In this document: positions 2 through 20,120 of the stretch, in pieces
Layout: each line of letters starts with the position of its first letter
How positions within the stretch are numbered: position 1 is the stretch's first letter
Assembly (NCBI RefSeq): GCF_007747655.1
Contig: NZ_CP036274.1
Location: 4,712,001 to 4,776,000 of the forward strand
Direction of reading: 5' to 3'
Length of the DNA stretch: 64,000 bases
DNA from: Anatilimnocola aggregata
GTDB taxonomy: Bacteria; Planctomycetota; Planctomycetia; Pirellulales; Pirellulaceae
Position numbers and translations under genes: made by a program
The notes under the pieces: generated by a model
The model's database searches: none
Told to the model about the DNA's origin: nothing
Seen by the model: the letters and a program-made list of their open reading frames with translations, nothing else

Positions 2-301
2 AATGCATTGGTGCAAGACATTGAGCCGTTCTTGCTGACGGGGCGCAGTCCGCTGAGGCGGCTTGACACTTCGCAGCGCTGCAGTTGGTACTTCGAAGAG
101 TTGCGACGGCGCATCGACACAGCGGAGATACAGGTGGTTGTTAGCAGCCTCGAGCAATTCTGCGAGCGGCGGCGGCAAATGAACTTGCAGCAGTCGTTGC
201 ACTTTTGGCTGCATGGGTGGCTGAGTATTCATCTGCCCTTGGCAATGGCGCTCGTTATCTTGCTGGTCGGTCACATCTGGTTCGCCCTGCGTTACAGTTA
301 A
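2..301 (+). CDS. C-terminal part of a membrane protein, possibly cytochrome b-like (5' truncated)
   Basis: The reading frame is open to the left edge, so this is the last ~100 residues of a longer protein. The visible part is a soluble arginine-rich segment followed by one C-terminal hydrophobic helix (about residues 68-97). The helix carries two histidines in the pattern WLHGWLxIHLP, and a third histidine sits near its end. This resembles haem-ligating helices of cytochrome b-type quinone oxidoreductase subunits, but the domain that would identify the family lies outside the window. It ends 6 bp before a decahaem cytochrome and is probably the membrane partner of that operon. Function is inferred from context only. 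Confidence 0.55.
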   Translation, partial: NALVQDIEPFLLTGRSPLRRLDTSQRCSWYFEELRRRIDTAEIQVVVSSLEQFCERRRQMNLQQSLHFWLHGWLSIHLPLAMALVILLVGHIWFALRYS

Positions 302-307
302 TCACCG

Positions 308-1816
308 ATGAAGGCCAACAACATTCCATCGAACCGAGAATCGAGCAAGCAGCGGGCCCTGCGCATTGGGCTGAGCTATCTGGCTCGCAGCGATGCCTTC
401 GTCCGCAGTAAGTTCTTCTGGGCGGCCGTTTGTTCGTTTCTCGCCGTCGCTTATCTCGGCTGGATTGTTGTGGGCAGCGAACCGGCAGTCGCGCAGCTAT
501 CGCCCGCGCCACTGGCTGCGGTGCATGCCCGCTCGAACGGCCGATGCGCAGACTGCCATCTCGACTATGTTCCGCTCGGTGCCAACTCGCACGGGGTGAG
601 TCTGCTGACCTCCGCGTTCAACGGCTTTCAGCATTCGCAAACTATTGACGCAAATAAGATTTCGCAGGCCAGTTGCAGCAGTTGTCACGAGCGCCACGTC
701 GTCACGCCGCATAATCCCAACCAACGGCCCGACGATGTGGCAAGTTGTGCCTCGTGCCATGCAGAACATCGTGGACATGCGGCACAGCTGACTCGTCCCG
801 ACGACCAGTCCTGCACCATCTGCCATGCAGATATCGCCGCCCACCAACTTCGGACCGATCCAACAAATCCGCTGCCGAATGTCTCTCACTTTGCTTGCTC
901 GTCGGCGGCCAATCCACCGCATCCCAAGTTTCGTTCGCTACCGAAGACGGACGACAACCAGTTCAAGTTTAACCATCAACTTCACTTGCGACTGGGCCAG
1001 TGGCCGAACAACAGCAGCGAGTCGAAAGGGCCTTGGACCCTTGGTCGGATTGCTGCGGAGCTGCGGGAACAATACCAAACCTCACCGGGGCAACCAGACA
1101 CAACGGCCGTGCAGCTCGATTGTGCGTCGTGCCATCAGCCCGATCGTAACGGGCCTTCACCGCAAAGCGGCAAGTACATGCAGCCCGTTCGCTTCGAGCA
1201 GCATTGCCAGGCGTGTCATCCGCTGGACGTCGCTTCGGTGGCCAGTGGCAAACCGCTGAACTTGAACATTCGCCACGGGCTGAAGCAGGACGAGATTCGC
1301 GAAGCGCTTTTCGCTGGCTTAGTGAAACATCAGGCCGGAGAAACCGCTCAGAGTTTGCCTCACTTGTCACCGAACACCCCTATTCCCGGCAAGACGCCCG
1401 GCAACAACCTGGCCCAGAACCTGGCCGATCAATCGCAAACCATTGCGTTGCAGACCAAGCTGTACAACGACACCTGCTTGAAGTGCCACACCGAGCAAGA
1501 ATTTCCACCCAAGATCCTGCACGAGCCGATCGACTTCCCACCGCCGAAGTTTCCTGACCGCTGGTTGCTGCAGGCCCGCTTCGATCATGGCGCGCATCGC
1601 GACTGGGCGAAGTGCAGCGACTGCCATGCCGCTGCTGATGCGCAGCCTGGCGAGGGGAAGACGCAACTTGACGATTCTCAAGTGATGATTCCGAACATCG
1701 ATAACTGCGTGCAATGCCACGCTCCCACGAGCACACATAGTCATTTTCGAAGTTCGGCGCGCTTCGACTGTGCCGAGTGCCACCGCTATCACGACCACTC
1801 CGCGGGAAAGCAATAA
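308..1816 (+). CDS. Membrane-anchored decahaem c-type cytochrome
   Basis: A 502-residue protein with an uncleaved-looking N-terminal membrane helix (about residues 36-57) and a periplasmic part with ten CXXCH haem c motifs: CADCH, CSSCH, CASCH, CTICH, CASCH, CQACH, CLKCH, CSDCH, CVQCH and CAECH. The first four are clustered near the N-terminus, and additional histidines between motifs could serve as distal ligands. This matches cytochrome c3/doubled-CXXCH type proteins. Role: electron relay at the outer face of the cytoplasmic membrane. It is the second visible gene of an operon, 1 bp before the start of the next cytochrome and upstream of NADH-diaphorase-like genes, so it may take electrons from (or give them to) that module through the upstream membrane subunit. 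Confidence 0.85.
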   Translation: MKANNIPSNRESSKQRALRIGLSYLARSDAFVRSKFFWAAVCSFLAVAYLGWIVVGSEPAVAQLSPAPLAAVHARSNGRCADCHLDYVPLGANSHGVSLLTSAFNGFQHSQTIDANKISQASCSSCHERHVVTPHNPNQRPDDVASCASCHAEHRGHAAQLTRPDDQSCTICHADIAAHQLRTDPTNPLPNVSHFACSSAANPPHPKFRSLPKTDDNQFKFNHQLHLRLGQWPNNSSESKGPWTLGRIAAELREQYQTSPGQPDTTAVQLDCASCHQPDRNGPSPQSGKYMQPVRFEQHCQACHPLDVASVASGKPLNLNIRHGLKQDEIREALFAGLVKHQAGETAQSLPHLSPNTPIPGKTPGNNLAQNLADQSQTIALQTKLYNDTCLKCHTEQEFPPKILHEPIDFPPPKFPDRWLLQARFDHGAHRDWAKCSDCHAAADAQPGEGKTQLDDSQVMIPNIDNCVQCHAPTSTHSHFRSSARFDCAECHRYHDHSAGKQ

Positions 1817-1817
1817 A

Positions 1818-3194
1818 ATGCAGCTTTCTCCGTGTTATAACGTTGTCTCCTTGCTCGCCTTTCTCGCTGCGCTCAGCGGTTGTCAAGAAGCGGTAGCCCC
1901 GCTGTCTGCTGTCGATAGTCGACTGGCCTCGGATGTTACCAATGAGGCAGTTGTCCGTCCTTCGTCGCCACCCAACTCGCCCCATCAGTTCGTTGGCCGC
2001 ATCTCGTGCTCGGCAACGGCCTGTCATGGCGCAACGGACCTAACGAAGGCCAGTTGGCACAACGCCTATCAACTGTGGTCTGCCACCGATCCGCACCGAC
2101 GCGCGTTTGATGTGCTGTATGCCGAGCGTTCGGTGCAGATGTATCGCAAGCTGAAGCAGGATCAGGCCGAGCACATCAACGAGCCGGTCTATTTAAAGTT
2201 TCTGGAAGAGACCTGCATCGGCTGCCATGCGACGCCCATTGCCGGTTCGCTCGCGAATACCTCATTCACCTTTCAAAACAGTCCCGCAGCCTATTGGCAA
2301 GGTGTTTCGTGCGAATCGTGCCACGGCGCTGCCAGCGACTGGATCGAACCACACGATGCAAAAGCCTGGCCTGAAAGTGGTCAACCCGAGCGTGCTCGCG
2401 TTGCTCAACATACGGGCTTTCAAGATCTGCGCTCGCTCAACGATCGCGGAGCAGCCTGCGTGAAGTGCCATGTGGGCCCGCAATCAATGGGCACTCGCCT
2501 GTACGACGTGAATCACGACTTAATCGCCGCAGGTCATCCGCGCCTGACTTTCGAGTTGCACGCGTATCTCGACAACCTTCCCAAACATTGGGATGAAGCC
2601 GCTGAGCAAGCTCGCCATGACAAACAGATCGCTACAAGTCCCAGTTCGTTTCATTTCGATACTTGGCTCGCTGGCCAACGACAACAGCGGCAGCAACTGG
2701 CGGCCCTCAAGCAAGCGCGAACTGAAACGAACGCGGCACTCCCCGCTGGCCCCTGGGCCGAATTTGCCAATCGCGACTGCCGCGAATGTCATCATCCTAT
2801 CGGTGAACCAACCTTCCGCTTGACGACTCTTCTTAAGCCAGCGCCGACCACTACGTTATTAGACAGAATCAACAGCCCCACGACCGTGCAGCAGCGGGCT
2901 GAAGTGATCGCGCGACTCATCAGCGATAATCGAAGCGCCCCCGGTTCAAACGTATTGCCAACGTGCGACGCGGCGGTGCAGATCTATCTCGCCGCCAAAG
3001 CGTTCGCAGCTGATTTGCCCGCAGGTGATGACTCTACAAGGCTTAACGCTGCGCTCACTCAACTACAGCATATCCTCGCGCAGCACGCCGGGGCCACGCA
3101 GTACGATTTCCCAGGCAAGTTCGACCCGCGCCAAACAGAACTTCAGCAGGCATTCACCGCGCTCGAAGCCACACTCCTTCAACTTTCGCGATAG
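1818..3194 (+). CDS. Pentahaem cytochrome c554-like lipoprotein
   Basis: I chose the ATG at 1818, one base after the upstream stop, because it gives a lipoprotein signal peptide with lipobox LSGC near residue 21; an earlier in-frame ATG at 1770 would overlap the upstream gene. The mature protein (about 437 residues) has an unusual CX4CH motif (CSATACHG) followed by CIGCH, CESCH, CVKCH and CRECH. The NHDLIAAGHPRL segment, with a likely distal haem histidine, is typical of cytochrome c554-like proteins. It resembles two - strand cytochromes at 16.9-20.1 kb in this window. It is probably anchored in a membrane facing the periplasm and exchanges electrons with the decahaem cytochrome encoded just upstream. 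Confidence 0.85.
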   Translation: MQLSPCYNVVSLLAFLAALSGCQEAVAPLSAVDSRLASDVTNEAVVRPSSPPNSPHQFVGRISCSATACHGATDLTKASWHNAYQLWSATDPHRRAFDVLYAERSVQMYRKLKQDQAEHINEPVYLKFLEETCIGCHATPIAGSLANTSFTFQNSPAAYWQGVSCESCHGAASDWIEPHDAKAWPESGQPERARVAQHTGFQDLRSLNDRGAACVKCHVGPQSMGTRLYDVNHDLIAAGHPRLTFELHAYLDNLPKHWDEAAEQARHDKQIATSPSSFHFDTWLAGQRQQRQQLAALKQARTETNAALPAGPWAEFANRDCRECHHPIGEPTFRLTTLLKPAPTTTLLDRINSPTTVQQRAEVIARLISDNRSAPGSNVLPTCDAAVQIYLAAKAFAADLPAGDDSTRLNAALTQLQHILAQHAGATQYDFPGKFDPRQTELQQAFTALEATLLQLSR

Positions 3195-3216
3195 TCTCCA
3201 GTCAGGCCCAGCCCGC

Positions 3217-5148
3217 ATGATTATTCAGGAACTGCAACGACTGCAAACGGAGCACGGCTATTTGCCGCGGCAAGCGCTGCGTCAATTGGCCGACCGCCTG
3301 GCAGTCCCGCACTATCGCATTCAAGAGGTCGCCAGCTTCTATCCTCACTTCCGCCTGTTTGCCGGCGAGGCGGAGGAAGCTGAGGGGCGAAAAGCTCTGC
3401 CGCAGATCGAAGTCGCCGTTTGCCGCGATATGGCTTGCCGACTCCGCGGCGCAGCCCAGATCACCGAACAACTGCAGGGCGTCGCCGAGAGGAATGCAAC
3501 AATCGCAATTCATGAAGTATCGTGCCTCGGCCGCTGCGATCGTGCGCCGGCCGTGCGCGTGCATACGAACAGCGGCGATCACTGCGTGCGCAATCTTCTC
3601 GGCCGCTCACCAGCTGAAGTGAGCGACATAGTTGCCCGCATGGCATCAGCCACTCCAGAAACTGCGGATACTCTGCCCGATGACAAAGATGGCTTGCTTC
3701 CCCACTCGGCCGAAACTTGGAAGATGAATGCCTACGCTGGGCAGTCTGCCGATCAGCGTTACGCCGCCCTTCGCCAGTGGCTCAGCGTGCTGCAGAATCC
3801 ACCGAGCACGCGTGCCAAACCAACCGACGCTCCGCCCAGCGCCGGGCGCGACGACAAACCGGCTCACCCGATCATCGCGGCCCTTTGGACAGCCAACCTG
3901 CTTGGCATGGGTGGAGCCGGTGGTCGTGCCTGGAAGAAGTGGGACGAAGTGCTGCGGGCCAAAGGGCATACCAAGTACGTCGTCTGCAATGGTGATGAGA
4001 GCGAGCCCGGTACTTTCAAAGATCGCGAGATTTTCCTTCGCACGCCGTATCTGGTCATTGAGGGGATGATTCTCGCCGGACTCTTGCTACGGGCGAAGAA
4101 GGGGTACATCTACATTCGTCACGAGTACGAAGAGCAAATCGCCGCCGTCCGCGCCGAGATTGAACGCGCCCGCAAGTTAGGCCTTTGTGGTAAGAGTATC
4201 CTTGGCACCGAACTGGGCTTCGAGCTCGAAGTATTCGTCAGCCCAGGTGGCTACATTTGTGGCGAACAAACGGCCCTCATTCAGGCTATTCAAGACGAAC
4301 GCGCGGAACCGCGCAATCGCCCGCCAGAATTGCAAACGAACGGCCTGTGGGACATGCCGACGCTCCTCAACAACGTCGAGACATTCGCCTGGGTTCCGGC
4401 GATTCTCACGCAAGGCAACAGCGACGGTGCCTGGTACTCGGCGCTCGGTCAGCCCAAGTCACTCCCCGTCAAAGAGAATGCCACGCCCCACTATCAAGGC
4501 GCGCGGTTCTTCTCCGTCTCCGGCGATGTTGCCCAGCCCGGCGTCTACGAAGTTCCCATCGGCATAACCCTCGGCGAGTTGATCGACCATTATTGCGGCG
4601 GTATCAAGGACGGGCTGCCACTTAAGGCGGTCGCCACTTCGGGACCATCGGCTGGTTTTTTACCTGCGACCATCCCGCTCGATGCTTTCAGCCCGCGCGT
4701 GCGGCAAAAACTGGCTGACCATTGCCTTGTTTCTGCCGGCGACAAAGAATTTCAACTCCGCCGCTTGCCGCTGGAACTGGGCGTGGTGCGCGATCTGAAC
4801 TTGATGCTCGGCGGCGGCATCGTCGTCTATGCCAGCGATGCCGACCTGGTCGATCAGGCCGTCGCTTGCCTCAGGTTCTATCAGTCCGAATCGTGCGGCA
4901 AGTGCGTTCCCTGCCGCATTGGTTCCACCAAACTGGTCGAAATTGGCGAGGACTTGCAAGCCGGACGGCTGACTGCTGCCGAGATCGAAAGCCTGCTCGC
5001 AAATCCGGGCGGGCGAGTGTTGGATTTGGCTCAGGCAATGGCCGAGACAGCGATCTGCGGGCTGGGCAACGTGGCCCCTAATCCCCTGCGTACTTTGTTG
5101 TCTTATTTTCCCAGCGATGTGCGACGTCACGTTCGCGCGGAGCAGTGA
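3217..5148 (+). CDS. NuoE-NuoF fusion, NADH-dehydrogenase/diaphorase subunit (HoxF-like)
   Basis: A 643-residue cytoplasmic protein. Residues 1-150 form a NuoE-like thioredoxin-fold domain with the [2Fe-2S] ligands CX4C (CRDMAC, about 68-73) and CX3C (CLGRC, about 103-107). The rest is NuoF-like: FMN/NADH-binding loop LGMGGAGG (about 229), the CNGDESEPGTFKDRE segment (about 257), the GGYICGEQTAL segment and the C-terminal [4Fe-4S] ligands CGKCVPC (about 560) plus CGLG (about 614). The fusion order matches HoxF of NAD-reducing hydrogenases and NAD-linked formate dehydrogenases. It should oxidise NADH (or reduce NAD+) and pass electrons to the next gene product. The start at 3217 avoids the overlap that longer in-frame starts would make with the upstream cytochrome gene. 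No hydrogenase or molybdopterin subunit is visible. Confidence 0.9.
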   Translation: MIIQELQRLQTEHGYLPRQALRQLADRLAVPHYRIQEVASFYPHFRLFAGEAEEAEGRKALPQIEVAVCRDMACRLRGAAQITEQLQGVAERNATIAIHEVSCLGRCDRAPAVRVHTNSGDHCVRNLLGRSPAEVSDIVARMASATPETADTLPDDKDGLLPHSAETWKMNAYAGQSADQRYAALRQWLSVLQNPPSTRAKPTDAPPSAGRDDKPAHPIIAALWTANLLGMGGAGGRAWKKWDEVLRAKGHTKYVVCNGDESEPGTFKDREIFLRTPYLVIEGMILAGLLLRAKKGYIYIRHEYEEQIAAVRAEIERARKLGLCGKSILGTELGFELEVFVSPGGYICGEQTALIQAIQDERAEPRNRPPELQTNGLWDMPTLLNNVETFAWVPAILTQGNSDGAWYSALGQPKSLPVKENATPHYQGARFFSVSGDVAQPGVYEVPIGITLGELIDHYCGGIKDGLPLKAVATSGPSAGFLPATIPLDAFSPRVRQKLADHCLVSAGDKEFQLRRLPLELGVVRDLNLMLGGGIVVYASDADLVDQAVACLRFYQSESCGKCVPCRIGSTKLVEIGEDLQAGRLTAAEIESLLANPGGRVLDLAQAMAETAICGLGNVAPNPLRTLLSYFPSDVRRHVRAEQ

Positions 5149-5154
5149 GTACTT

Positions 5155-7824
5155 ATGCCGGCTAAGATCTTTGTCGATGAAATCGCACGAGCCTGGGAAG
5201 AAGAAGGGCTCTTCGCGCGCGACTTGAACGGCCAGCTGATCCGGGCGGAAGATGCGACTGCCAAGCAATACGCGCAGTTCGTCACGATGACGATCGACGG
5301 CCAGTCAATTTCGGTTCCTCGCGCTACACCCGCGGTCGATTCGCAAGGAAACATCATTTTTCTCGATGCGGCCGGTCGCACGCAGCCGAGGCAAACAACC
5401 ATCCTCGATGCTCGCAATGCGCTCAAAAATCAAGAGCAGCAATCGGCAACTGCCAGCGACTGCGAACACTTCATTCCCACCGTCTGCCATCTTGCGCATC
5501 TCAATCCGGCAGGTGTCTGCCGCGTCTGCTCGGTTGCCGTGGCGAAGCAGGATGCCAACGGACGAATTTCGGTCCAGGACAAACTGGTCCCTGCCTGCCT
5601 GCAGCCGGTTCAGCCGGGAATGATGGTCTACACGCTCGACTGCCCGGCGGATGCTAGTACCACCGACGACTCCAAAGCCCGCGAAGTCGCATTGGCCGCG
5701 CGCAATCGAGTGCGCACGAATGTGAAAACGCTCGTCGAACTTCTCGCCGCCGATCACTTGCCAGGGCTTCGACCCGCTACTGCAACGGGCGAAGCGAGCG
5801 ACCTCGAACAACTCCTCGACAAGCTCCAGCAGAAAGGGCTCGGTATCGAGCGGACTCGACTCGCGCCGCGTCGCAGCCAGGGTTCGCCAAAAGTTAATGG
5901 GCACGCCCCGCTTGCCAACAACGCTTCGCAGCGTGATACCTCCTCGCCCCTGATCGTGGTCGATCATCAGGCCTGCATTCTGTGCGATCGCTGTGTCCGT
6001 TCCTGTAGCGACATCAAGCAGAACTTCGTGATCGGCCGCACCGGCAAGGGATATCTCACCGAGATTGGGTTCGACCTGAACGAACCGATGGGTGAATCGT
6101 CGTGCGTGGAGTGCGGCGAATGCGCGCTCGCTTGTCCCACGACTGCACTCACCATTGTGAAGCCACCGGAAGAACCAGCCTGGTGGCTGGAGCAAGTCGG
6201 CGGAACCAACAGTGCAACGGGCAAGCTATTTTCAGGACATCCCGGCAAGTCAGCTGCAACTCCCGCATCGCTGGCCAATCATCGCTATCTCGGCCACCTC
6301 TCTTATCGCCAGCGGCAATGGTTTCAGTATTCGGTTGTCCGCTGGGAACTCCAACCGGGCGACGAACTTTGTCGCAAGGGGGAATATGGTTTTACCGCGT
6401 TCCTGCTGGAAAGTGGCCAGTTTGAAGGGTGGCGTCAGGATCCGCGCGACGCGCAGTCAGACGCAACAGCGAATCCAAGTGCCAGCGGGGGAATTTGGAG
6501 CTACTTCGGACTCTCCTCAGCCACAACCAAGCGCACCGCCAGCGTGGAGCTTGGCCAGCCCGACTTTGAGTGCGGCACCGAGGCCATCATCTTGGGCGAG
6601 ATGACGCTCATCAGTCATCAGGCGCGTAGGGCGACCTTGCGCGCCAAGACGTCGTGCGTCGTGTACGAAATTCGCCGCAATGTGCTCTATGCACTGCAGC
6701 GCCACCCGCACGTTCGTGAAGAGTTAGATCAGGTCTATCGTGGCCGCGCGCTGCGCGACGTGCTGCAGTTCGTTCATCAGCGTGCGGGACGAAACTTAAG
6801 TCACCGCCTGTTTGGCGAACTGGGGCAAGAAGATCTCGAAGCGTGCCGGCGATTTCTGGATCAAGCGAGTCGGCAGCCCGTATCAGCGACGAATCCCAAG
6901 CGGCAGGTCGACCTGATTCGCGTCGAGCCCGGCCAGGTGATCTGCCGGCAGGACGAACTGGCGGAAGATTTTTACATCATTCGCATCGGCCACGTGAACG
7001 TGACGCAAACGATCGGGGGCGAAGAGCGCGTGATCGACTATTTCCGTCCCAATCACTCCTTCGGCGAAATTGCCTGTGTGGCCGATTGGGACGAACTGCA
7101 AACCGAACTCTCGCTGAAGCCCGATGCCAGTCGGCGAACGGCAACCTGCACCGCTCTGGACGACGTCGAACTGGTGCGGGTCGACAAGCAGATCTTTCGT
7201 CAGTTGCTCTTGCAGGTGCCTGCCCTGCGAAAGATTGTGCTCGCAAGGGCTAAACAGTTGAAGGGTTTCTCGCCGCCGGCAACCACACCAGGTGCCCGAC
7301 CAACCACCAACACGCCGATCCTGCGCGAGTTCACCGAACAAGGTCTTTACAATGCCCAGCGTTTGCTGGTGCTCGATCTGGAAGCATGTACGCGCTGCGA
7401 TGAATGTACGAAGGCTTGCTCCGATACGCACGACGGCGTCACGCGGCTGATTCGCGAAGGCCTGCGCTTCGATAAATGGCTCGTAGCCAGTTCGTGCCGC
7501 TCCTGCACCGACCCTTATTGCCTGGTAGGCTGCCCCGTCGATTCGATTCATCGCGATGGCGAGCGGCTAGAAATTCAAATCGAGGATCATTGCATCGGCT
7601 GCGGGCTGTGCGCGAAGAATTGCCCCTATGGCAACATCAACATGCACGAGCAGTCGCAAGGGAAGGCGACGATTTCGCACCGCGCAAGCACCTGCGATCT
7701 CTGTCATAAAATCGTGGGGCCCAATGAAGACGTCAGTTGCGTTTTCGCTTGTCCGCACAACGCCGCGTTCCGCATGAGCGGGACAGAGCTACTGGCGAAG
7801 ATCGAAGGTTATCGGCCGGTCTAG
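5155..7824 (+). CDS. NuoG/HoxU-like iron-sulfur protein with two cyclic-nucleotide-binding domains
   Basis: An 889-residue protein, 6 bp after the NuoEF fusion. In order: a [2Fe-2S] domain with cysteines spaced as in NuoG/HoxU (about 103-130); two CX2CX2CX3C ferredoxin motifs (CILCDRCVRSC about 273, CVECGECALAC about 317); two CRP-type cyclic-nucleotide-binding domains (about 379-535 and 549-699), each with recognisable phosphate-cassette remnants (GEMTL...RRAT and FGEIA...RRTAT); and a C-terminal ferredoxin region (about 745-876) with CTRCDECTKAC, CRSCTDPYCLVGC, CIGCGLCAKNC and CDLCH...CVFAC. There is no molybdopterin domain. It likely relays electrons between the diaphorase and a further acceptor, with ligand control through the inserted domains; ligand binding is inferred, not shown. 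Confidence 0.85.
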   Translation: MPAKIFVDEIARAWEEEGLFARDLNGQLIRAEDATAKQYAQFVTMTIDGQSISVPRATPAVDSQGNIIFLDAAGRTQPRQTTILDARNALKNQEQQSATASDCEHFIPTVCHLAHLNPAGVCRVCSVAVAKQDANGRISVQDKLVPACLQPVQPGMMVYTLDCPADASTTDDSKAREVALAARNRVRTNVKTLVELLAADHLPGLRPATATGEASDLEQLLDKLQQKGLGIERTRLAPRRSQGSPKVNGHAPLANNASQRDTSSPLIVVDHQACILCDRCVRSCSDIKQNFVIGRTGKGYLTEIGFDLNEPMGESSCVECGECALACPTTALTIVKPPEEPAWWLEQVGGTNSATGKLFSGHPGKSAATPASLANHRYLGHLSYRQRQWFQYSVVRWELQPGDELCRKGEYGFTAFLLESGQFEGWRQDPRDAQSDATANPSASGGIWSYFGLSSATTKRTASVELGQPDFECGTEAIILGEMTLISHQARRATLRAKTSCVVYEIRRNVLYALQRHPHVREELDQVYRGRALRDVLQFVHQRAGRNLSHRLFGELGQEDLEACRRFLDQASRQPVSATNPKRQVDLIRVEPGQVICRQDELAEDFYIIRIGHVNVTQTIGGEERVIDYFRPNHSFGEIACVADWDELQTELSLKPDASRRTATCTALDDVELVRVDKQIFRQLLLQVPALRKIVLARAKQLKGFSPPATTPGARPTTNTPILREFTEQGLYNAQRLLVLDLEACTRCDECTKACSDTHDGVTRLIREGLRFDKWLVASSCRSCTDPYCLVGCPVDSIHRDGERLEIQIEDHCIGCGLCAKNCPYGNINMHEQSQGKATISHRASTCDLCHKIVGPNEDVSCVFACPHNAAFRMSGTELLAKIEGYRPV

Positions 7825-7848
7825 AATAGCTGCCAAGAGCGCTGGTCA

Positions 7849-8262
7849 TTAATGGCCGTGCTTGAGCCCGTCCGTCTTATAGGTTCCCCCGCCCCCTTGC
7901 GCGCGGCGGCCGTGCGTCCAATTGAGCGCCACGCGCTTGGGAAAAAAGCCGAAATAATCCCAGCCGAAGGTTCCTTCGTCACTGTGGCGGCCTTCGCCCA
8001 AGAGGGGAACGCTGCCGCCGACATAATAGCCGCCGTAATAGCGCGTGTTCGCAGGAATCGCATGCGCTCGAACCGACTGCGCGAACCCGGCGCGGCAGTG
8101 ATCTCCTTGGCGATAATCGAAGCCGCCACCGCCATAGGCAAAGTTGATCGCCGCTGCTTGATCGGCCGACAGTTCATGAACCTCTTGCGCATCCGCGTTG
8201 TCGACTGCGCATAGAAAACACAGCGATAACACAATCATCAGCAGAATTAGTCGCAGTGTCAT
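7849..8262 (-). CDS. Small secreted planctomycete protein, unknown function
   Basis: A 137-residue protein starting at the ATG at 8262, which places a clear signal peptide (about 26 residues ending ADAQ) at the N-terminus; the longer frame upstream adds a non-hydrophobic leader. The mature part is rich in Gly, Tyr and His, with a GGYYVGG segment and a C-terminal YKTDG motif. From memory, small secreted proteins of this type are frequent and multicopy in Pirellulales, but I know of no assigned function. It converges on the iron-sulfur operon, with 24 bp between the stop codons. Confidence 0.7.
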   Translation of the reverse strand: MTLRLILLMIVLSLCFLCAVDNADAQEVHELSADQAAAINFAYGGGGFDYRQGDHCRAGFAQSVRAHAIPANTRYYGGYYVGGSVPLLGEGRHSDEGTFGWDYFGFFPKRVALNWTHGRRAQGGGGTYKTDGLKHGH

Positions 8263-8290
8263 CTCACATCCATGTTGAATCGGCCATGCC

Positions 8291-10555
8291 TTATCGCAAC
8301 GGCGGGTTACGGTTGAACTTCTGCGAAGGCAGACGAACACCGCGATAGAACACTTGATCGGCCTGCAAATTCACCGGCGGAACATAGCCGCGCTCGGCAG
8401 AGAACGTAACGACGTCGTCTTGATCGACACCGTCGCCACTGACTCCCAATCCCCCGTTCAATGTCGCCCCCACATACAGCGGCGTACTGCCGGGAAAAAA
8501 GACGACTCCATTTTGATTGGCGATGTTGTCTACGTCATGAAAGTTGCGGCCGGCGTGAAAAGAATCGAAGCCGAACACCGTTTGGAATTGCGACGCCAAC
8601 ATCGGCTGGCCAATATTCTCAGCAGTCTTGCGGTTGATTCGGGTCTTGCCGACACCAGTGGGGACTTCCACATCGTTTAAAATGCTGAAGATCGGCGGCA
8701 AACCGTCGATGCCTGCCGGATAACGCGGTGTGGCCAGAAAACGGAAGGTGCGATTCGTAAAAGCCAGACCTGTCGCCGGCACGAACAGATTCGTGCTCTT
8801 GGTGTTCGTGTAAAGATCGGGGCTGCCGACGACGCCGTTCGTCTTGGCCTTGTTTTTGGTCAGCTCGGCAACCGTGATCGAACCACGGGCCAGCAGCTGG
8901 TCATCATCGACGAGATCTTCGGGCTGAATGGCCGAAGCGTCGGCGTAATAGGCAGTATTGCGGGCCTTGGCGACCGCTACATCGATGGAGAATACCGTGG
9001 CATCCTTCATGCGGTACAAGCCCAGCACATTGCCATCACGATCGGCAATTGCAAAGACCATCGCCGTCGGCGCGCCGGGCTTGGCTGTGGCACCGGTGAG
9101 ATTCAGTCGAATCGCCGCGCGCGTTTTCTCCGCTTGGGCAATTCCCTGGGTGACAATTCGCTCGATGTCGGCCACCGTCAGCGAACTGGCCCCAGTTGGC
9201 GAGACGTGCGGCGTCACCAGCCAGCCGTCGGGCATGGTTTCTCCCGGCAGATATAGTTCGTTATCGGCAGGCGTAGCGGGGTTCATATCGGCCCCCGGAT
9301 CGACCACCTGATCCATGCCGCTGGTCCCATCACCGCCGACCATAACTTGCATGCCAATGCGCTGAATGGTTTCCACGCCCGGCAGTCGATTCTTGGCCGT
9401 TGGATTTGGCCCGACTAGTTCCAGTGTGACGCCAGCCAGGTCGATGCGACCTTGCTTGGCAAGTACGTCGTAACTGGGAAGCGCGGGGACACCGTTGATC
9501 GCGTTAATTTTTACCGACTGATTCTTGAGGGTCTTCAGTCCCGTTGCGCCACCAGCAGCGGCGAAGGCAATCCATTCTGCTTCGAGCACTTTGGGCGCGT
9601 TCAAGCGTTGTTCGTTGGTTTGTGGTTTCGCATTTTCGTTGGCGGCCTGCACAAAGCCCTGTTCAAACGTCGCATCGCCATTCATGCCGGGAAAAAAGAC
9701 GCCAATTCCCCCGACCACTACGGGCTTCCCGTTAATCACCTTCACCAGTGGAATTCCACCAGGCAACGTAGCGATGCCGCGCGACTGAGCATAATCCAAG
9801 CGATTCGACTGGAAACCGTAAGACTCGGGTGCTTCGAGTAATTTCCCGGCCGGCACAAAAGCAGGATCGACATTGAACCGGCTCATCAGGTTGATATCGT
9901 CGGCGCTCCCCTTCACGCCATCGAGTCCCGGGTGAACGATACTATCGCGACTCTGCCGTTCGATGCCGAACAAATCGACCGGCGGCGTATTCTTTACACC
10001 TTGCGGAAAGTGACCGCCGACACCAATGGGCGCGACAAACCCCGGACCAAAGGTGCGGGCGGTGGGGTCGGCATCGTCAAACGGATTGTTCACCAGCGGA
10101 TCTGGGACGTTGGGATTCGACTGCACTTCCCGCTGTGTGACGGTCGACTGGCTCAGATTGCGAACGGTCCGCGAAGTAAGCGGCGCTTGATCGTTGGCAA
10201 AGAAGGCCGCCGTGCGGGCTTTGGCCACTGCACCATCGATGGCGAAGATTTGCAGCGCTTCGTCGGTAATGTTGTCGAGAACATCTTGTTCGAGACGAAC
10301 ACCCAAAATGTGGCCACCCCGGTCAACGACTGCGATGATTGCATCTTCCGAGTTCGATGCTGCCGCTGCTCGCGCCAGCAATACCTGCACTTCGGTTTCG
10401 GTAATGGTGTCGAGCGTCTTGTCGAGTTGCAGCTGAGCTAGCACTGCAGGCGAATCGGGCAGCGGCATTCCCGCCATCAATTCGCGCCGTTCGAGGCACT
10501 CCAAACCAAGCCGTCGCCCCGCACGCTTCGAACCGTAAACCTCACTCGCCAACAT
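8291..10555 (-). CDS. LEPR-XLL protein with two GlcG/HbpS-like haem-binding domains
   Basis: A 754-residue protein. Residues 18-28 (LECLERRELMA) match the planctomycete LEPR-XLL N-terminal motif of exported proteins. Two GlcG/HbpS-type (DUF336) domains follow, one at about 45-150 (AIIAVVDRGGHILG...AVAKARTAAFFA) and one at about 490-600 (AMVFAIADRDGNVLG...AVAKARNTAYYA), separated by a long Gly/Pro-rich linker. HbpS family members bind haem or sense redox state, while others have unknown substrates. The gene lies between two multihaem cytochrome clusters, which makes a haem-related or redox-related role plausible but unproven. A GAAGGGA stretch precedes the start codon. Its 5' end is divergent from the porin-like gene. 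Confidence 0.75.
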   Translation of the reverse strand: MLASEVYGSKRAGRRLGLECLERRELMAGMPLPDSPAVLAQLQLDKTLDTITETEVQVLLARAAAASNSEDAIIAVVDRGGHILGVRLEQDVLDNITDEALQIFAIDGAVAKARTAAFFANDQAPLTSRTVRNLSQSTVTQREVQSNPNVPDPLVNNPFDDADPTARTFGPGFVAPIGVGGHFPQGVKNTPPVDLFGIERQSRDSIVHPGLDGVKGSADDINLMSRFNVDPAFVPAGKLLEAPESYGFQSNRLDYAQSRGIATLPGGIPLVKVINGKPVVVGGIGVFFPGMNGDATFEQGFVQAANENAKPQTNEQRLNAPKVLEAEWIAFAAAGGATGLKTLKNQSVKINAINGVPALPSYDVLAKQGRIDLAGVTLELVGPNPTAKNRLPGVETIQRIGMQVMVGGDGTSGMDQVVDPGADMNPATPADNELYLPGETMPDGWLVTPHVSPTGASSLTVADIERIVTQGIAQAEKTRAAIRLNLTGATAKPGAPTAMVFAIADRDGNVLGLYRMKDATVFSIDVAVAKARNTAYYADASAIQPEDLVDDDQLLARGSITVAELTKNKAKTNGVVGSPDLYTNTKSTNLFVPATGLAFTNRTFRFLATPRYPAGIDGLPPIFSILNDVEVPTGVGKTRINRKTAENIGQPMLASQFQTVFGFDSFHAGRNFHDVDNIANQNGVVFFPGSTPLYVGATLNGGLGVSGDGVDQDDVVTFSAERGYVPPVNLQADQVFYRGVRLPSQKFNRNPPLR

Positions 10556-10774: not shown

Positions 10775-12769
10775 TTGAGTATCAGCACTTACGCTTCGGG
10801 CTGCCGCTCCGCTGGTGTTACCTTGAACCATCTTCATGGAGCCACCTCGCTGTCAGGGCTTCGTCGCGGGCTCTACAGCTCGCGCTGGTTCCTAGCACTG
10901 CGCGCGGTCGCCGTGCTGGCTTTCTTCCTTGGTGGAATTGCGGCGAAGCAAACCCATGCGCAGGAAGTTCTTCCTCCCACGCCGCCCATGCTGATTCGTC
11001 CGCCCGTTCTCAGCGGGCCGCAGTTGACTCAGCCGACCACGCCCGACTTTGTTCCGCTGCCTCACTTCATCGAAGAGCCCGACCTGCTGTTGCAGTGGCC
11101 CGTCGATCCGCCCCTCGGCTATACCGGCCCTTCGGGCATTCGTCCCGAAGAGCCGCAACTCGATAGCCATTTTGTTCCGCTGGCCGATCGCTGGCGCAGC
11201 GGCTTTCCCGAGTGGGATCGCTACGACAAGGGTCATCCCGCGCAAGACGAGTATCCGTTTGTCGAAGGGAGCAAGTGGGATCCTTATCACCAGAACTTCC
11301 TCAAGGGTGACTATCCCATTCTTGGTCAGCACAACTTTTTCATCCTCACTGCGACCGAAAATCTGCTGCTCGAAGCGCGCCAGGTTCCCACTCCGAACAC
11401 TCCCTTCGAAAGTACGCCCGATCCCGGCAGCGAAGAGTTTTTCGGCGATCCCGACCAGTACTTCATGAACAATAACCTGTTGATCTCCACCGAGTGGAAT
11501 CACGGCGATGCGGGTTTCAAGCCAGCCGACTGGCGCGTGAAGCTAACGAACATTTTCAACATCAACCACCTGGTCGCCGATGAATACGGCGTTGTCAGTC
11601 CCGATGTGCGCAAAGGTACCGGACGATTTCGCGAACGATACGCACTGGAGGAATGGATATTCGAAACGAAGCTCGCCGACTTCGGTCCCGATTACGACTT
11701 CGTATCCGCCCGCGCCGGTTCGCAGTTCTTTGCCAGCGATTTCCGCGGCTTCATCTTCGCCGACGTCAACCGCGCCTTTCGCCTGTTCGGCACGCGTTTC
11801 TCGAATCGCGATCAGTTCAACCTGATCTATTTCGATCAGACCGAAAAAGACACCAATAGCCTGCTGAACACGTTTGACGACCGCCATCAAAACACGCTTA
11901 TCGCCAATTACTATCGCCAGGATTTCATCTGGCCCGGTTACACGGTCTCGTGCAGTTACCACTACAACCGCGACCAGGCCAGCGTCGAGTTCGATAAGAA
12001 CGGCTTCCTCGTGCGGCCCGATCCGGTAGGAGTTTTCGCCGAACACGAAGTGAACTCGCACTACTTGGGCTTTGCCGGCGATGGGCACATCAATCGCGTC
12101 AACATCTCGCACGCGTTCTATTGGGCGCTCGGCAAAGACGAGCTAAATCCGCTGGCCGGCAGACCGGTGAATATTAACGCTCAAATGGCAGCGCTCGAGC
12201 TCTCGTACGACCGCGATTGGATTCGCTTTCGCACGTCCTACTTCTTCGCCTCGGGCGACGACAACATCTTCGATGGCGAAGGGACCGGTTTCGACACCAT
12301 CTTCGACAATCCGAACTTTGCCGGTGGTCAGTTCAGCTATTGGCAACGGCAAACGATCAAGCTCTTCGGCGTGAACCTGACCAACCGCATGAGTCTGGTC
12401 CCCGATTTACGCTCGAGCAAGTTCCAAGGGCAAACCAACTTTGTGAACCCGGGCCTACATCTTTTTAACATGGGTTACGACGCGGAACTGACACCCAAGC
12501 TGCGGTCGATCAACAACGTGAACTTCCTCTGGTTTGATCAGACCGAAGTCCTCGAGCAGTTTGTCTTTCAGCCCAACATCAACGCGTTCATTGGTGCCGA
12601 CGTGAGCACCGGCGTCGAATATCGCCCACTGCTGAACAATAACATCATCTTTGTGGGCGGAATCTCGATGCTCATTCCGGGACCGGGCTTCGACGATTTG
12701 TACGCACCCCTCGATGGCCAGGCCAACACGCTGGTGGCCGGCTTCGCCAACTTAGCTTTGACCTATTAA
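10775..12769 (+). CDS. Probable outer-membrane beta-barrel (porin-like) protein
   Basis: About 664 residues. No ATG is available: an in-frame stop lies at 10742, and the first candidate is TTG at 10775 (a second TTG would start at NHLHG). The N-terminus has a signal-peptide-like hydrophobic stretch ending near THAQ. The rest has alternating hydrophobic/polar strands rich in Tyr, Phe, Asn and Asp, no cysteine-haem motifs, and ends in LALTY, a terminal aromatic residue as in BAM-recognised barrels. It resembles large planctomycete DUF1302-like porins in character; no exact family is assigned. Its stop is 5 bp before the decahaem LVIVD cytochrome gene, so the two are almost certainly co-transcribed and may form a porin-cytochrome unit. 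Confidence 0.65.
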   Translation: MSISTYASGCRSAGVTLNHLHGATSLSGLRRGLYSSRWFLALRAVAVLAFFLGGIAAKQTHAQEVLPPTPPMLIRPPVLSGPQLTQPTTPDFVPLPHFIEEPDLLLQWPVDPPLGYTGPSGIRPEEPQLDSHFVPLADRWRSGFPEWDRYDKGHPAQDEYPFVEGSKWDPYHQNFLKGDYPILGQHNFFILTATENLLLEARQVPTPNTPFESTPDPGSEEFFGDPDQYFMNNNLLISTEWNHGDAGFKPADWRVKLTNIFNINHLVADEYGVVSPDVRKGTGRFRERYALEEWIFETKLADFGPDYDFVSARAGSQFFASDFRGFIFADVNRAFRLFGTRFSNRDQFNLIYFDQTEKDTNSLLNTFDDRHQNTLIANYYRQDFIWPGYTVSCSYHYNRDQASVEFDKNGFLVRPDPVGVFAEHEVNSHYLGFAGDGHINRVNISHAFYWALGKDELNPLAGRPVNINAQMAALELSYDRDWIRFRTSYFFASGDDNIFDGEGTGFDTIFDNPNFAGGQFSYWQRQTIKLFGVNLTNRMSLVPDLRSSKFQGQTNFVNPGLHLFNMGYDAELTPKLRSINNVNFLWFDQTEVLEQFVFQPNINAFIGADVSTGVEYRPLLNNNIIFVGGISMLIPGPGFDDLYAPLDGQANTLVAGFANLALTY

Positions 12770-12774
12770 CAAAT

Positions 12775-15700
12775 ATGCGTATGCCTTGCTGGAACACAAC
12801 TCGCATCGCCGCACCTTGGCTAGGCCTTGCCTGCTGCCTGCTGACAGCCAACGTTCAGGCCCAAGTGTCGCCCCCCGGTGGTGAGGATCTATATCGTCAA
12901 ACGGCCGACGACGCCCACCGCAAAAGTGCCAGCTGCGTGAAGTGCCACACCGGCGTACACGACATGCATGCCAAGCCGACCGTCAAGCTGGGCTGCATCG
13001 ATTGCCATGGCGGCGATGCCAACTGCGACAACAAAGAAGGTGCCCACGTTCGGCCGAAGTTTCCCGAAATGTGGCCCACTTCGGCGAACCCCGTCCGCTC
13101 GTACACGCTGTTGAATCATGAGAGCCCAGAGTTCGTGCGGTTTGTGAATCCCGGCGACCTGCGCGTCGCCCACATCAGCTGCGGCAGTTGCCATCCGCAG
13201 GAAGTGCTGCAAGTGCGCAAGAGCATGATGACCCACGGCTGCATGCTGTGGGGCGCTGCTCTCTACAACAACGGGGCGGTTCCCCACAAAGCGTCGCGCT
13301 ATGGCGAAAGCTATACCATGCATGGCACGCCTCAGCGCATGCAGAACGTCTGGAAGCCCGAAGAAGTGCCGCAGATCGCCCGCGACTTGCGCGAAAAGGC
13401 GATGGTCCTCTATCTTGATCCGCTCCCACGGTTCGAGATCAGTCAGCCGGGCAATATCCTCCGCGTGTTCGAGCAAGGAGGCCGCTTTCGCCCCGAGGTC
13501 GGCATTCCCGAACTGGGCGAAGAACCGGGCCGCCCGCGCACGCGCCTCAGTACGCGTGGTTTGGGAACCGAGAACCGGACCGATCCCGTGTTCATTGGCC
13601 TGCAGAAGACTCGACTCCTCGACCCGACGCTCAACTTTCTCGGCACCAACGATCACTCTGGCGACTACCGCAGCAGTGGTTGCAGCGGCTGCCACGTGGT
13701 CTACGCCAACGATCGCTCGCCGGTTCATTCCGGCCCCTATGCCCGCTTTGGCAAAAGTGCATTTGCCGCTCCCGAGCCCGACCTCAACGGGCCGAATCAA
13801 TTCGTCACCAACGTCGATCCCACCATTCCCAAGGATGAGCGCGGCCACCCGATCGCGCATCGCTTTACCACGGCAGTTGCCACCAGCCAGTGCATCGTCT
13901 GCCACATTCATCCCGGCACGAACGTACTGAACACCTACATCGGCTTCATGTGGTGGGATAACGAATCCGATGGCGAACTGATGTACCCGCGCGAGCAAAA
14001 GAATCCAACGAGCGAAGAGCTCGCGCAATCGCAAATGTCGAATCCCGACGAGACCGCCGCGCGCGGCAATTGGTCCGATCCGAACTTCCTGGAGCGCGTC
14101 GCCGAGCTCAATCAAATCGCACGGCATAACCAGTTCGCCGATTTCAATGGTCACGGTTGGGTCTTTCGCGCCGTCTTTAAGAAAGACCGCCAAGGGCGGC
14201 TGCTCGATCCTTTCGGCAAGCCGGTTGAAAACCTTACTACCGAGAAACTGCGGGCCGCCGTGGTACAGCCCGAAGAGCAATACGTCCCACCGATCATCAC
14301 TCCGGAACCGCAACAAGTCTGGCCCGATCCGGCTCGTCAGCAAACACTAGCCAGCAGCAAGAGCTGTGCGGACATGCCCGTACACCTGATGGACATTCAT
14401 CAAGAAAAAGGGATGCATTGCGTCGATTGCCACTTTGTGCAAGACGCTCACGGCAACACCAAGTTGTATGGCGAAGTGCGCGCTGCCATTGAAATCACTT
14501 GCATCGACTGTCACGGCCCCGCCGACAAAACCGTGATGCAGCGGCTGCACGAAGGAAAAGGAATGCGCACCAGCGGTCCCGCAGCGGAGCCCGCTTCCGC
14601 CAAGAATCCGCGCGGCGGTCGCGACCTGATGGCGCTGCGCACCCCCGATGGCCGGCCGCGGTTCGAAGTCCGCCCCGTTACCCGTCCCGATGGCCGCCGC
14701 GAACTAGCGCTCATTCAGCGGGCAATGGTGGAAGCAGGCCGCGAGTGGGAAGTGAAACAAACGGCCGATACGACAAACCCGACCAGCTACAACTACAACC
14801 AAAAGTCGCACATGGCCAAGACCGTGCGCTGGAGTGAACTCGACGGCAAACTCACCTGGGGGGGCGTGGTCCAGGAACTGGTCGATGCGAACGGCAAGAA
14901 GGTCGAAGTCGTCGATCAAAAGCCCTGCGCGCATCAAAGTGGCAATATGAGCTGCATGACGTGCCATTCGTCGTGGAATCCCAGTTGCTTCGGCTGCCAT
15001 CTGCCGCAAAAGGCGAACAAGAAGGCACCTGCGTTGCACAACGAAGGAGACGTCTCGCGCAACCTGGTCGCTTACAATTTTCAAACTCTTCGCGACGATG
15101 TCTATATGCTCGCCCGCGACGGCCTGGCGACTGGCAACAAGATCAACCCTGCGCGCTCTTCGTGCGCGATCCACGTCACTTCGTACAACGGCAATCGCGA
15201 ATCGATCTATCACCAGCAGCAGACCATCTCGGGGAGCGGCATGAGTGGGATCGCCTTCAGCACGAATGTGCCCCACACGGTGCGCGGTGCTCATCCCAAT
15301 CTGCGCGGCGTTGTTCCTGCCGGCGCTTCAGAAACCAAGATGTGCACTGACTGTCACGTCTCGGTGAACAACGACAACAACGCGATTATGGCCCAGCTGT
15401 TGATGCAGGGGACCAATTACACCAACTTCATGGGGCGCTATTGCTGGATTGCCGCGGGCGAACATGGCCTGGAAGCAGCGGTCGTCACCGAGCAGAACGA
15501 ACCCCAAGCCGTGATCGGCAGTTCGTTGCATCGCATTGCCTTTCCCGACCATTTCAAAAAGCATGTCGAGCACGACTTGGAACTGGAACACGCTCACGAG
15601 CATCCCGGGCTCGATGTGCTCGAGCAACTCAGGCGGCCCATGCGTAAGCCGGAAGTGTTGATGGTTCAGCCGCGCGGCGAATATCTGTATGCCGCTTGCG

Positions 15701-18672: not shown

Positions 18673-20120
18673 TTGAGTAGTAACATCCGCCCGTGCATTT
18701 TGTCGGCGATCGTCTTTAACTGAGGGCCCAGTTCCTGCCGATGTTCGTGAAACTGCTGTGGTTCGTCGCTGAGTACCGACTTGGCAGAGCCCCCTTCGAA
18801 CTGCAACCACGTACGGACAAGCGTCAAGTCAGCAACCACCGACTCGTGCTCGGTCAGTCGGCGATTGTACTCTTCGCTGCCGAGGCGTGCGAAGAACTGC
18901 GCTTTGGCTAACTCATCGCGATAGGTTCGTTCCGCAGCCACGAGAGCCAGAAACTGCTGCGAGCGAGTTTCCCAGTCGGACTCGCCGGTAGGATTGCTTA
19001 GCGAAGTCGACAACGTGAGCAACAATTTCTCAGCGCTGAACGATTCATCTGGCGTCAGATTATTGAACCGTCGCCGTGCAGCAGCGCTGGCCGCGAGCAC
19101 TTGGGATTGCTTCGGCGGAAAAGTTTCGCTGAAGATGGTGCGCAAGGTTTGCAGCGACGAGTCGTTATCGGCGCTGCGATCTGCGGCTTGAAGCGATTCG
19201 ACAAACGTCAAATGCCAGCGGCTCCAGTCGGGACGACCAGGATCGCGCTTGGCAACCAGCAGGCTACTGGAAACGCGAAATCGCTGATGGCAGGCGAAGC
19301 AGTTGTACTCGGCAAATTCTGGCCAACGTTCCGGCACGCTTCCACAGCGAGCTTCCAATAATTCCAGACTGGCCTGCGCACCGGCGACTTGCCCTGCTGC
19401 CCACAGCTGCACCTGAAAGTCGCGTGTTTGTAACCGCTCGGGCGAATCGTCCCAATGTTTGTGGCGAATCAAGTCGTGAAACGCAGTCAGTTCGTAGCGT
19501 AGCGGTGGATGCCCCGCGGCAATCATGTCGTGATTCATATCTTGGTCGGCGGAACCAACATGACAGCTCGCGCAGGCTTTACCACGAGTGTGCAGATTCT
19601 TCGTATCGAGCATGCCAAGTGAAAGTAACTCAGCGCGATTGACATCACGCTCGTAGTGCCTGGTGATCCACTTCTCGGCATTGCCGTGGCACGATTCGCA
19701 GCTGATACCGTGCCCCAGGTTGTGATTTGCCGTCAATTCAGCTGCCATGCCAACCGGATCGTGACACTGGTTGCAGCGAGCCTGCATCTTGGGGTCGGGC
19801 TTACCATCGGCTCGCTGACTGGCGCGCGAAAGAATCGTTTGGAACCGATCGCTCTGCAGCGTGGCCCGCGCTTGCGCATGCGGATCGTCTTGCAACCAGC
19901 GGACATACTCCTCGCGCGGCCGTGGTCGGGCGATGTTGTCGATCTGTCCACCATGACACGACACGCTGCTGCAACTGAGCGACCCCATCATCTTGGGCGC
20001 ATCAGTTTCTTCTCCAACGGCCGCTGTCATCGCAGTGGTAGCCAAAGCCAGCGCAATACTCACCAATGGCCCGGGCAACCACTGCCTACTCCACCGGCGG
20101 TTATTGAAGGAAGTACGCAT
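18669..20120 (-). CDS. Pentahaem cytochrome c554-like protein
   Basis: A 483-residue exported protein with an N-terminal signal/anchor (about 15-35). Haem motifs: an unusual CX4CH (CSSVSCHGG), then CNQCH, CESCH, CASCH and CFACH. The segment DMNHDMIAAGHPPL closely matches the lipoprotein cytochrome at 1818-3194 (DVNHDLIAAGHPRL), so the two are paralogues that share the CX4CH site. The remaining C-terminal ~200 residues are helical without haem sites. It is the first gene of a two-gene operon with the cytochrome at 16855-18672 (4-bp overlap). Confidence 0.85.
   Translation of the reverse strand: MRTSFNNRRWSRQWLPGPLVSIALALATTAMTAAVGEETDAPKMMGSLSCSSVSCHGGQIDNIARPRPREEYVRWLQDDPHAQARATLQSDRFQTILSRASQRADGKPDPKMQARCNQCHDPVGMAAELTANHNLGHGISCESCHGNAEKWITRHYERDVNRAELLSLGMLDTKNLHTRGKACASCHVGSADQDMNHDMIAAGHPPLRYELTAFHDLIRHKHWDDSPERLQTRDFQVQLWAAGQVAGAQASLELLEARCGSVPERWPEFAEYNCFACHQRFRVSSSLLVAKRDPGRPDWSRWHLTFVESLQAADRSADNDSSLQTLRTIFSETFPPKQSQVLAASAAARRRFNNLTPDESFSAEKLLLTLSTSLSNPTGESDWETRSQQFLALVAAERTYRDELAKAQFFARLGSEEYNRRLTEHESVVADLTLVRTWLQFEGGSAKSVLSDEPQQFHEHRQELGPQLKTIADKMHGRMLLLK

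Follow-up and report, generated by a model that had tools for sequence, protein, structure and literature searches.

The closest described relatives of the system reported here each cover one part of it. A NuoE-NuoF fusion with HoxU-like iron-sulfur (Fe-S) clusters characterizes the HoxEFU and NuoEF-NuoG(N) diaphorases, and inner-membrane proteins such as CbcL, ImcH, and CymA deliver electrons to multihaem c-type cytochromes (PMC6295460, in the available part of that paper). Porin-cytochrome conduits (MtrCAB, Pcc, and Ext of Geobacter) comprise a barrel protein and a large multihaem cytochrome with a decahaem link, and a tandem cyclic-nucleotide-binding (cNMP) fold with a G-E...R motif is found in the kinases PKA and PKG and in the cAMP-regulated acetyltransferase Pat. 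Counterparts of all four, some of them putative, lie in or near a single operon of the planctomycete Anatilimnocola aggregata, at the beginning of a stretch of 64,000 nucleotides (positions 4712001-4776000 of contig NZ_CP036274.1; hereafter, the window) in a single-contig genome of 9.0 Mb (completeness, 99.98%). The operon encodes, in this order, a membrane subunit (MEM), a decahaem cytochrome (DECA), a c554-like cytochrome (C554), a NuoE-NuoF fusion (NuoEF), and an Fe-S protein with cNMP-binding domains (FS). The composition of this module is well supported. With moderate confidence, we propose that the products of the five genes form a single complex in the inner membrane, an NAD(P)H:multihaem-cytochrome c oxidoreductase that carries its own cyclic-nucleotide sensor or gate; taken separately, the reading as an oxidoreductase is likely, and gating by cyclic nucleotides is plausible.

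Composition of the operon

All five genes are on the forward strand. MEM (about 326 residues) is predicted to be a di-haem b cytochrome with five helices. Its gene begins 680 bp ahead of the window, at about position 15321 of a sequence that includes the 16 kb upstream (L002, in which position 16001 is window position 1), and ends at window position 301. It is followed by DECA (308-1816; 502 residues), with ten CXXCH motifs, a basic N-terminal tail, and one transmembrane helix, and by the lipoprotein C554 (1818-3194; 458 residues), with four CXXCH motifs, one CX4CH motif, and an LSGC lipobox identified by eye. NuoEF (3217-5148; 643 residues) comprises a thioredoxin-like 2Fe-2S domain, a flavin mononucleotide (FMN) and NAD(P)H site, an SLBB domain, and a 4Fe-4S domain, and FS (5155-7824; 889 residues) consists of a HoxU/NuoG-N part, two cNMP-binding domains, and a four-[4Fe-4S] ferredoxin. 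The intergenic spacers of 6, 1, 22, and 6 bp bear out the tight gene order (spacers of 1-22 bp) noted in a preliminary description made from the letters of the window alone. Its assignment of the last gene as HoxU-like holds for the HoxU/NuoG-N part but missed the two cNMP domains and the four-cluster ferredoxin; the identity of the c554-like lipoprotein is likewise supported, and its fifth haem motif (CX4CH) had been overlooked.

Recurrence among genomes

The loci compared here are the best 80 of at least 573 FS relatives, a selection that favors the NuoEF-bearing type; in our sorting, which relied on record titles, 60 are planctomycete-type and 20 are other. Five of them (L055, L057, L063, L072, and L127) duplicate other genomes, and two (L058 and L075) have no FS open reading frame (ORF) in the gene map. 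The maps were based on homology first and not on ORF length alone. Alignment A1 contains 18 sequences and excludes the FS of L036, L042 (split over ORFs), and L046.

The module is present as four or five consecutive genes in 40 of the 80 loci, which represent Planctomycetota, Verrucomicrobia, and Acidobacteria. It occurs in three orders, with all gaps at most 300 bp: MEM-DECA-C554-NuoEF-FS (12 loci), MEM-DECA-NuoEF-FS (16 loci), and NuoEF-FS-MEM-DECA (12 loci). The last of these is found exclusively in loci with acidobacterial record titles (Acidobacteria, Terriglobia, and Bryobacterales); among the loci titled as verrucomicrobial, L098 has the order MEM-DECA-NuoEF-FS, and L093, L094, and L103 have NuoEF-FS only. 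A search of other planctomycetes for the five-gene order, suggested in the preliminary description, recovered it in, for example, Rhodopirellula sallentina SM41, Neorhodopirellula pilleata Pla100, and Roseiconus nitratireducens JC645; Tautonia sociabilis GM2012 is a carrier without DECA in the gene map. Because the module recurs in many genomes, we consider its arrangement to be more than chance. Where FS is flanked by more than 7 kb on each side (37 loci), it is accompanied by NuoF in 36 cases, by MEM in 32, by DECA in 30, and by C554 in 29.

Among 294 genomes of the phylum, FS is encoded in 23, including that of A. aggregata (E <= 1e-40). Strong matches to MEM (E < 1e-50, a cut-off chosen after a gap appeared in the matches; 84 genomes match at E <= 1e-8) occur in 21 genomes, all of which belong to these 23. 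Twelve of the 21 supplied rows of the profile (alignment A2); the other nine did not, yet all nine carry FS. The coupling of a diaphorase to membrane and multihaem subunits, as proposed in the preliminary description, is thus supported by three gene orders across phyla and by the genome-wide co-occurrence of MEM and FS, and also by L053 and L072 (the latter the same contig as L035), where DECA and C554 are fused into a single protein with 14 haems.

Membrane and periplasmic subunits

The prediction of MEM as a di-haem b transmembrane cytochrome is based on four His residues (H85, H99, H301, and H315, in the numbering of homolog L065), which are invariant in an alignment (A3) of 36 of its 50 homologs and also present in the copy of A. 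aggregata. They form two H-x13-H pairs, in line with a di-haem b cytochrome. In an AlphaFold model of the homolog from Neorhodopirellula pilleata (L065; 36 sequences), which has a predicted local distance difference test (pLDDT) score of 85.7 and a predicted template modeling (pTM) score of 0.75, the first pair is located in helix 78-100 and the second in helix 265-322. The loop at residues 62-77 contains on average 5.3 Lys and Arg and no Asp or Glu, and that at residues 101-106 contains 0.5 and 0.1, respectively. The predicted topology would place the N-terminus inside and the C-terminus outside, and the roughly 124 residues that precede the last helix would form a cytoplasmic domain. Profile matches of MEM in the PDB (E >= 0.022) resembled coiled-coil noise and were discarded.

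The nature of MEM bears on a reading in which MEM and DECA would be a CbcL-type enzyme that oxidizes quinol or reduces quinone, and in which NuoEF and FS would connect NAD(P)H to the quinone pool in either direction. The homologs of MEM weakly match cytochrome b561-like families in Pfam (DUF4405 in 20 of 36, Ni_hydr_CYTB in 10 with a best E value of 0.001, and Ferric_reduct in 5), and homologs of both CbcL and ImcH have been tabulated for Acidobacteria and Verrucomicrobia, those of CbcL also for Planctomycetes (PMC6295460, same part). The MEM of A. aggregata itself, however, matches no Pfam family at E <= 0.05, and the long cytoplasmic loop before the last helix would suit the docking of a soluble partner. 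We consider such a link to the quinone pool fairly unlikely and prefer a direct route from FS to MEM.

DECA has ten CXXCH motifs in 46 of the 52 matches found in the 80 loci. In an alignment (A4) of the A. aggregata protein with 37 of these 46 ten-haem sequences, ten further His residues, beyond those of the haem motifs, are invariant in all 38 rows (selected for ten CXXCH), so that bis-His ligation of every haem would be possible. Profile matches of DECA in the PDB were rejected as relatives because they cover the protein only partially and are scattered over many unrelated multihaem cytochromes. Domains of the c7 and c554 types in the operon cytochromes are supported by Pfam and NCBIfam. The c554-like lipoprotein probably holds five haems, given its four CXXCH motifs and one CX4CH motif; CX4CHG is present in 43 of the 48 best c554-like matches among the 80 loci. 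In one locus (L032; G044:C5), an ORF with 17 CXXCH motifs (6785-8827) lies upstream of NuoEF-FS and overlaps the called NuoEF ORF, and a DECA-like gene with 12 CXXCH motifs adjoins MEM.

Electron input

Pfam and NCBIfam assign NuoE, NuoF, SLBB, and NADH_4Fe-4S domains to NuoEF, and its top matches in the PDB include subunits of the HydB and HoxF types. The NuoF part retains the motifs of the FMN and NAD(P)H sites. At a position of the NADH site (residue 351 of 643; 415 in a longer ORF), the operon protein has Gln; among 82 sequences, this column contains Gln in 47, Glu in 32, Ala in two, and a gap in one. Since this Gln replaces the Glu found at the matching position in the complex I NuoF of the same genome, use of NADPH is suspected. 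A change at the equivalent residue of NuoF from E. coli reportedly admits NADPH. The preliminary description named NADH as the donor; the operon enzyme may take NADPH instead, which we regard as a lead and not as a result.

The diaphorase might also be a detached module that serves the hydrogenase or a formate dehydrogenase of this genome. The genome does encode the large subunit of a NiFe hydrogenase (at 2.907 Mb) and two molybdopterin oxidoreductases (PF00384; at 1.01 and 6.61 Mb), but the former is 1.8 Mb from the operon and adjoins its own Fe-S, small-subunit, and NAD-binding genes, the last of which differs from that of the operon, and neither of the latter is part of the operon's cluster. 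No FeFe hydrogenase was found in the genome, complex I has its own NuoF, and the conserved partners of NuoEF in the operon are cytochromes. A Pfam scan of eight further proteins upstream and eight downstream revealed neither a hydrogenase nor a molybdopterin enzyme, so that the catalytic genes of a hydrogenase or formate dehydrogenase, which the preliminary description had named as the finding that would make this a known complex, were looked for and came out negative. The neighbor scans and the distant location of the catalytic genes rule out a hydrogenase or formate dehydrogenase complex at this locus, and service to remote enzymes of this kind is highly improbable. A remnant of complex I is ruled out because the genome has a nuo operon elsewhere, at about 2.77-2.78 Mb, which includes a NuoF gene; NuoB, NuoD, and antiporter-like membrane subunits were not seen among the scanned proteins beside the operon.

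In the NiFe hydrogenase cluster (about 2902403-2908405 of the chromosome, G000:C1; L146:3404-9406), the first gene encodes a small protein with a cNMP-binding domain; genes for an Fe-S protein, an NAD-binding protein (PF00175), and the small subunit come next. This is a second redox enzyme in the genome that adjoins a nucleotide-binding domain.

Cyclic-nucleotide domains of FS and linked cyclases

In FS, the HoxU/NuoG-N-like part (residues ~100-335; one 2Fe-2S and two 4Fe-4S clusters) and the DmsB/HydN-like ferredoxin at the C-terminus (~735-876; four 4Fe-4S clusters), both recognized by Pfam and NCBIfam, enclose two cNMP-binding domains (~390-535 and ~585-690; PF00027, E = 1.1e-25 for the protein). 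Residues were counted in 79 sequences (that of the window and those of 78 loci) selected for carrying all three parts. In the first pocket, G481 and R491 are present in all 79 and E482 in 78; in the second, G637 is present in all 79, E638 in 77, and R661 in 78. Both domains thus show the cNMP fold with the phosphate-binding G-E...R motif, and the six solved sequences that match this part at E <= 1e-4 are all regulatory domains of PKA or PKG. As for the Fe-S sites, none of the 79 sequences lacks any of the eight Cys assigned to the two 4Fe-4S sites near the N-terminus; 15 of the 16 Cys of the ferredoxin part are likewise present in 79 of 79, and the remaining one in 78.

In L048 (7553-9748), the HoxU part of an FS relative is replaced by an FHA domain at the N-terminus. 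In L034 (G058:C272), an additional FS gene, with a cyclase match some 500 bp upstream of it, has no MEM, DECA, or NuoEF gene in the 19 kb available.

The proposed nucleotide regulation of FS is indirectly supported by its linkage to cyclases. A class III cyclase was detected by BLAST in 17 of the 80 loci, about 17 times more often than expected (0.98); the expectation applies the density in the 23 FS-bearing planctomycetes (114 matches in 157.8 Mb) to the other phyla as well, and the Poisson and Fisher values ignore shared ancestry. The excess is seen in planctomycete-type loci (10 of 60; 0.72 expected) and in the others (7 of 20; 0.26 expected). The cyclase neighbors a gene of the module in eight loci (L067, L071, L073, L089, L112, L113, L115, and L124), and in 5 of the 23 FS genomes (G003, G044, G058, G152, and G216), where 0.34 would be expected, its distance from FS or MEM is about 5 kb or less. 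These estimates also rely on a 20-kb span of our choosing.

Proposed mechanism and its alternatives

The gene content, the cofactor motifs, the conservation of the nucleotide pockets, and the linkage of the genes are shown by the sequences themselves; from these, we infer how the subunits would assemble, in which direction electrons would travel, from which cofactor and to which final acceptor, and by which ligand their flow would be gated. NuoEF would oxidize NAD(P)H at its FMN on the cytoplasmic side and pass the electrons via the HoxU-like clusters to the four-cluster ferredoxin of FS. The electrons would then cross the membrane via the two b haems of MEM, first the cytoplasmic and then the periplasmic one, and exit through the ten c haems of DECA to the c554-like lipoprotein. 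From there, the electrons would probably pass to periplasmic cytochromes and, in many genomes, to a barrel-like protein and an LVIVD-repeat decahaem cytochrome at the outer membrane. A cyclic nucleotide bound to the tandem cNMP domains of FS, which are flanked by the two Fe-S halves of the protein, would gate the flow, and the enzyme may serve as a redox-relief valve that bypasses the proton-pumping complex I. Movement of electrons from the inside to the outside spends membrane potential and bypasses complex I; an ungated wire of this kind would be wasteful, so a gate would make sense.

The same complex could also operate in reverse, with low-potential periplasmic cytochromes reducing NAD(P)+ via DECA and MEM (reverse electron transport). 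Such a flow would be uphill from the usual potentials of multihaem cytochromes and against the membrane potential, and the operon does not encode a donor enzyme. The Gln in the NADH site of many homologs could, in view of the reported mutagenesis of NuoF, suit NADP+ and thus biosynthetic reduction. Moreover, HoxFU diaphorase works in both directions on an electrode (PMC3189943, in the available part of that paper). On balance, reversed flow seems quite unlikely to us, and we retain an outward flow of electrons.

Several observations weigh against the proposed gated oxidoreductase. The ligands of the N3-like cluster of HoxU are lost in the FS of A. aggregata, and four planctomycete loci (L037, L042, L049, and L050) have MEM, DECA, and C554 together with an FS that lacks the HoxU part, with no NuoEF in view. 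NAD(P)H is therefore not the sole electron source of the family, and the diaphorase is an add-on to the core. FS stands without MEM or DECA in view in 5 of the 37 well-flanked loci (L063, L073, L093, L099, and L127), and weaker matches to MEM were obtained in 63 more of the 294 genomes, of which only G198 encodes FS, so that MEM-like proteins evidently occur also apart from FS. Neither MEM nor DECA has a fold match in the PDB by Foldseek at E <= 0.001, and the confidence of the DECA model is moderate (pLDDT 68.8). A cyclase was not seen in 63 of the 80 loci in the sequence available, which includes some short stretches, and the nearest of the two class III cyclases of A. aggregata is located 10.5 kb upstream of MEM.

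The distribution of cyclases is also compatible with cNMP domains that are structural or sense another ligand, in an enzyme that is not gated by cyclic nucleotides, and some pockets of tandem cNMP proteins are known not to bind their ligand. Such an ungated enzyme is possible, if doubtful, given that both pockets of FS keep their Gly, Glu, and Arg almost without exception and that cyclases are strongly overrepresented near FS.

Putative outer-membrane genes linked to the module

About 3 kb downstream of the operon and outside of it, on the same strand, is a pair of genes that encode a probable outer-membrane beta-barrel (10775-12769, forward strand), recognized by eye from its sequence and without a match in Pfam, NCBIfam, or the PDB, and a large decahaem cytochrome with LVIVD repeats (12775-16884, forward strand; 1369 residues). 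The latter weakly and locally matches ExtM (E = 2.5e-17; 62 bits against a cut-off of 800). Two C554-family genes on the reverse strand face the pair; one has five CXXCH motifs (16855-18810), and the other has four and one CX4CH (18669-20120). They match the five-haem and four-haem members of a C554 gene pair near the module in relatives, which occurs on one strand 18 times in the 80 loci.

The LVIVD cytochrome is encoded in 32 of the 294 genomes, namely, in 18 of the 23 with FS versus 14 of the 271 without, and in 10 of the 11 loci (of 80) that contain both genes, the barrel-like and LVIVD genes are adjacent and on one strand. Pairs of LVIVD and barrel-like genes also occur near cytochromes with 15 and 18 haems in two genomes without strong FS (L136, G013:C21; L137, G052:C59), the first also near a MEM-like protein and the second near a distant FS-like gene. 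Because the pair adjoins other multihaem genes in such genomes, the conduit may take electrons from several input modules.

A more far-reaching proposal, which we put forward tentatively and hold to be less probable than not by some distance, is that the module represents an unnamed class of respiratory complexes. These would form a cyclic-nucleotide-gated, quinone-free NAD(P)H wire into the LVIVD-decahaem conduit and on to extracellular acceptors. In Planctomycetota, Verrucomicrobia, and Acidobacteria, they would serve as a bypass of complex I under the control of a signal, and a core without the diaphorase would be fed by other cytoplasmic donors.

Other neighboring genes

Extension of the sequence upstream, as advised in the preliminary description, located not only the start of MEM but also the next gene, a divergent Ser/Thr kinase with TPR repeats (Pfam). 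Directly downstream of the operon, on the opposite strand, are a small ORF and a gene for an HbpS-like protein of the haem-degrading protein family (8291-10555, reverse strand; 754 residues), which contains two HbpS-like stretches and separates the operon from the LVIVD pair. Immediately before the upstream cyclase gene is a gene for a DUF3050/Haem_oxygenas_2-like protein (iron-containing redox enzyme; L002:2173-2949).

Comparison with known systems

Each module of the operon is familiar singly, and the diaphorase is an optional addition to a conserved core. If the proposed function is correct, the operon would provide a direct route from NAD(P)H to cytochromes over the inner membrane and an electron carrier under the control of a second messenger instead of transcription, and it would bear on the disposal of reducing power in planctomycetes, verrucomicrobia, and acidobacteria. 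Carriers with named strains (SM41, Pla100, JC645, and GM2012) make the system testable.

Unlike the HoxEFU diaphorase, the operon has no hydrogenase or formate dehydrogenase partner, and some of its relatives do without NuoEF; its HoxU part, devoid of the N3-like ligands, shares one polypeptide with two cNMP domains and a four-cluster ferredoxin. In contrast to PKA, PKG, and Pat, the effector of its cNMP domains is an Fe-S electron-transfer protein and not a kinase or acetyltransferase. The bc complexes of anammox bacteria with NAD(P) oxidoreductase subunits also join NAD(P) chemistry to b- and c-type cytochromes in Planctomycetota; they are of the Rieske/cytochrome b type, and we know of none with a NuoEF-HoxU-cNMP architecture.

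The preliminary description could not match the operon to a named system, and our searches aimed at such a system, confined to open-licence papers in PubMed Central, named none. Within this literature, the conserved core of tandem cNMP domains with a four-cluster ferredoxin, an unassigned, predicted di-haem b cytochrome, and a decahaem c cytochrome fits no complex that we could name. The nearest described neighbors found are the porin-multihaem cytochrome clusters of Verrucomicrobia (PMC5615132), which have eight-haem periplasmic cytochromes and for which the available part of that paper mentions neither LVIVD repeats nor an NAD(P)H complex, and the quinol oxidases CbcL, ImcH, and CymA (PMC6295460, likewise in part). 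The operon of A. aggregata differs from both in its parts and in its input, which it encodes as an entry for NAD(P)H via flavin and Fe-S clusters.

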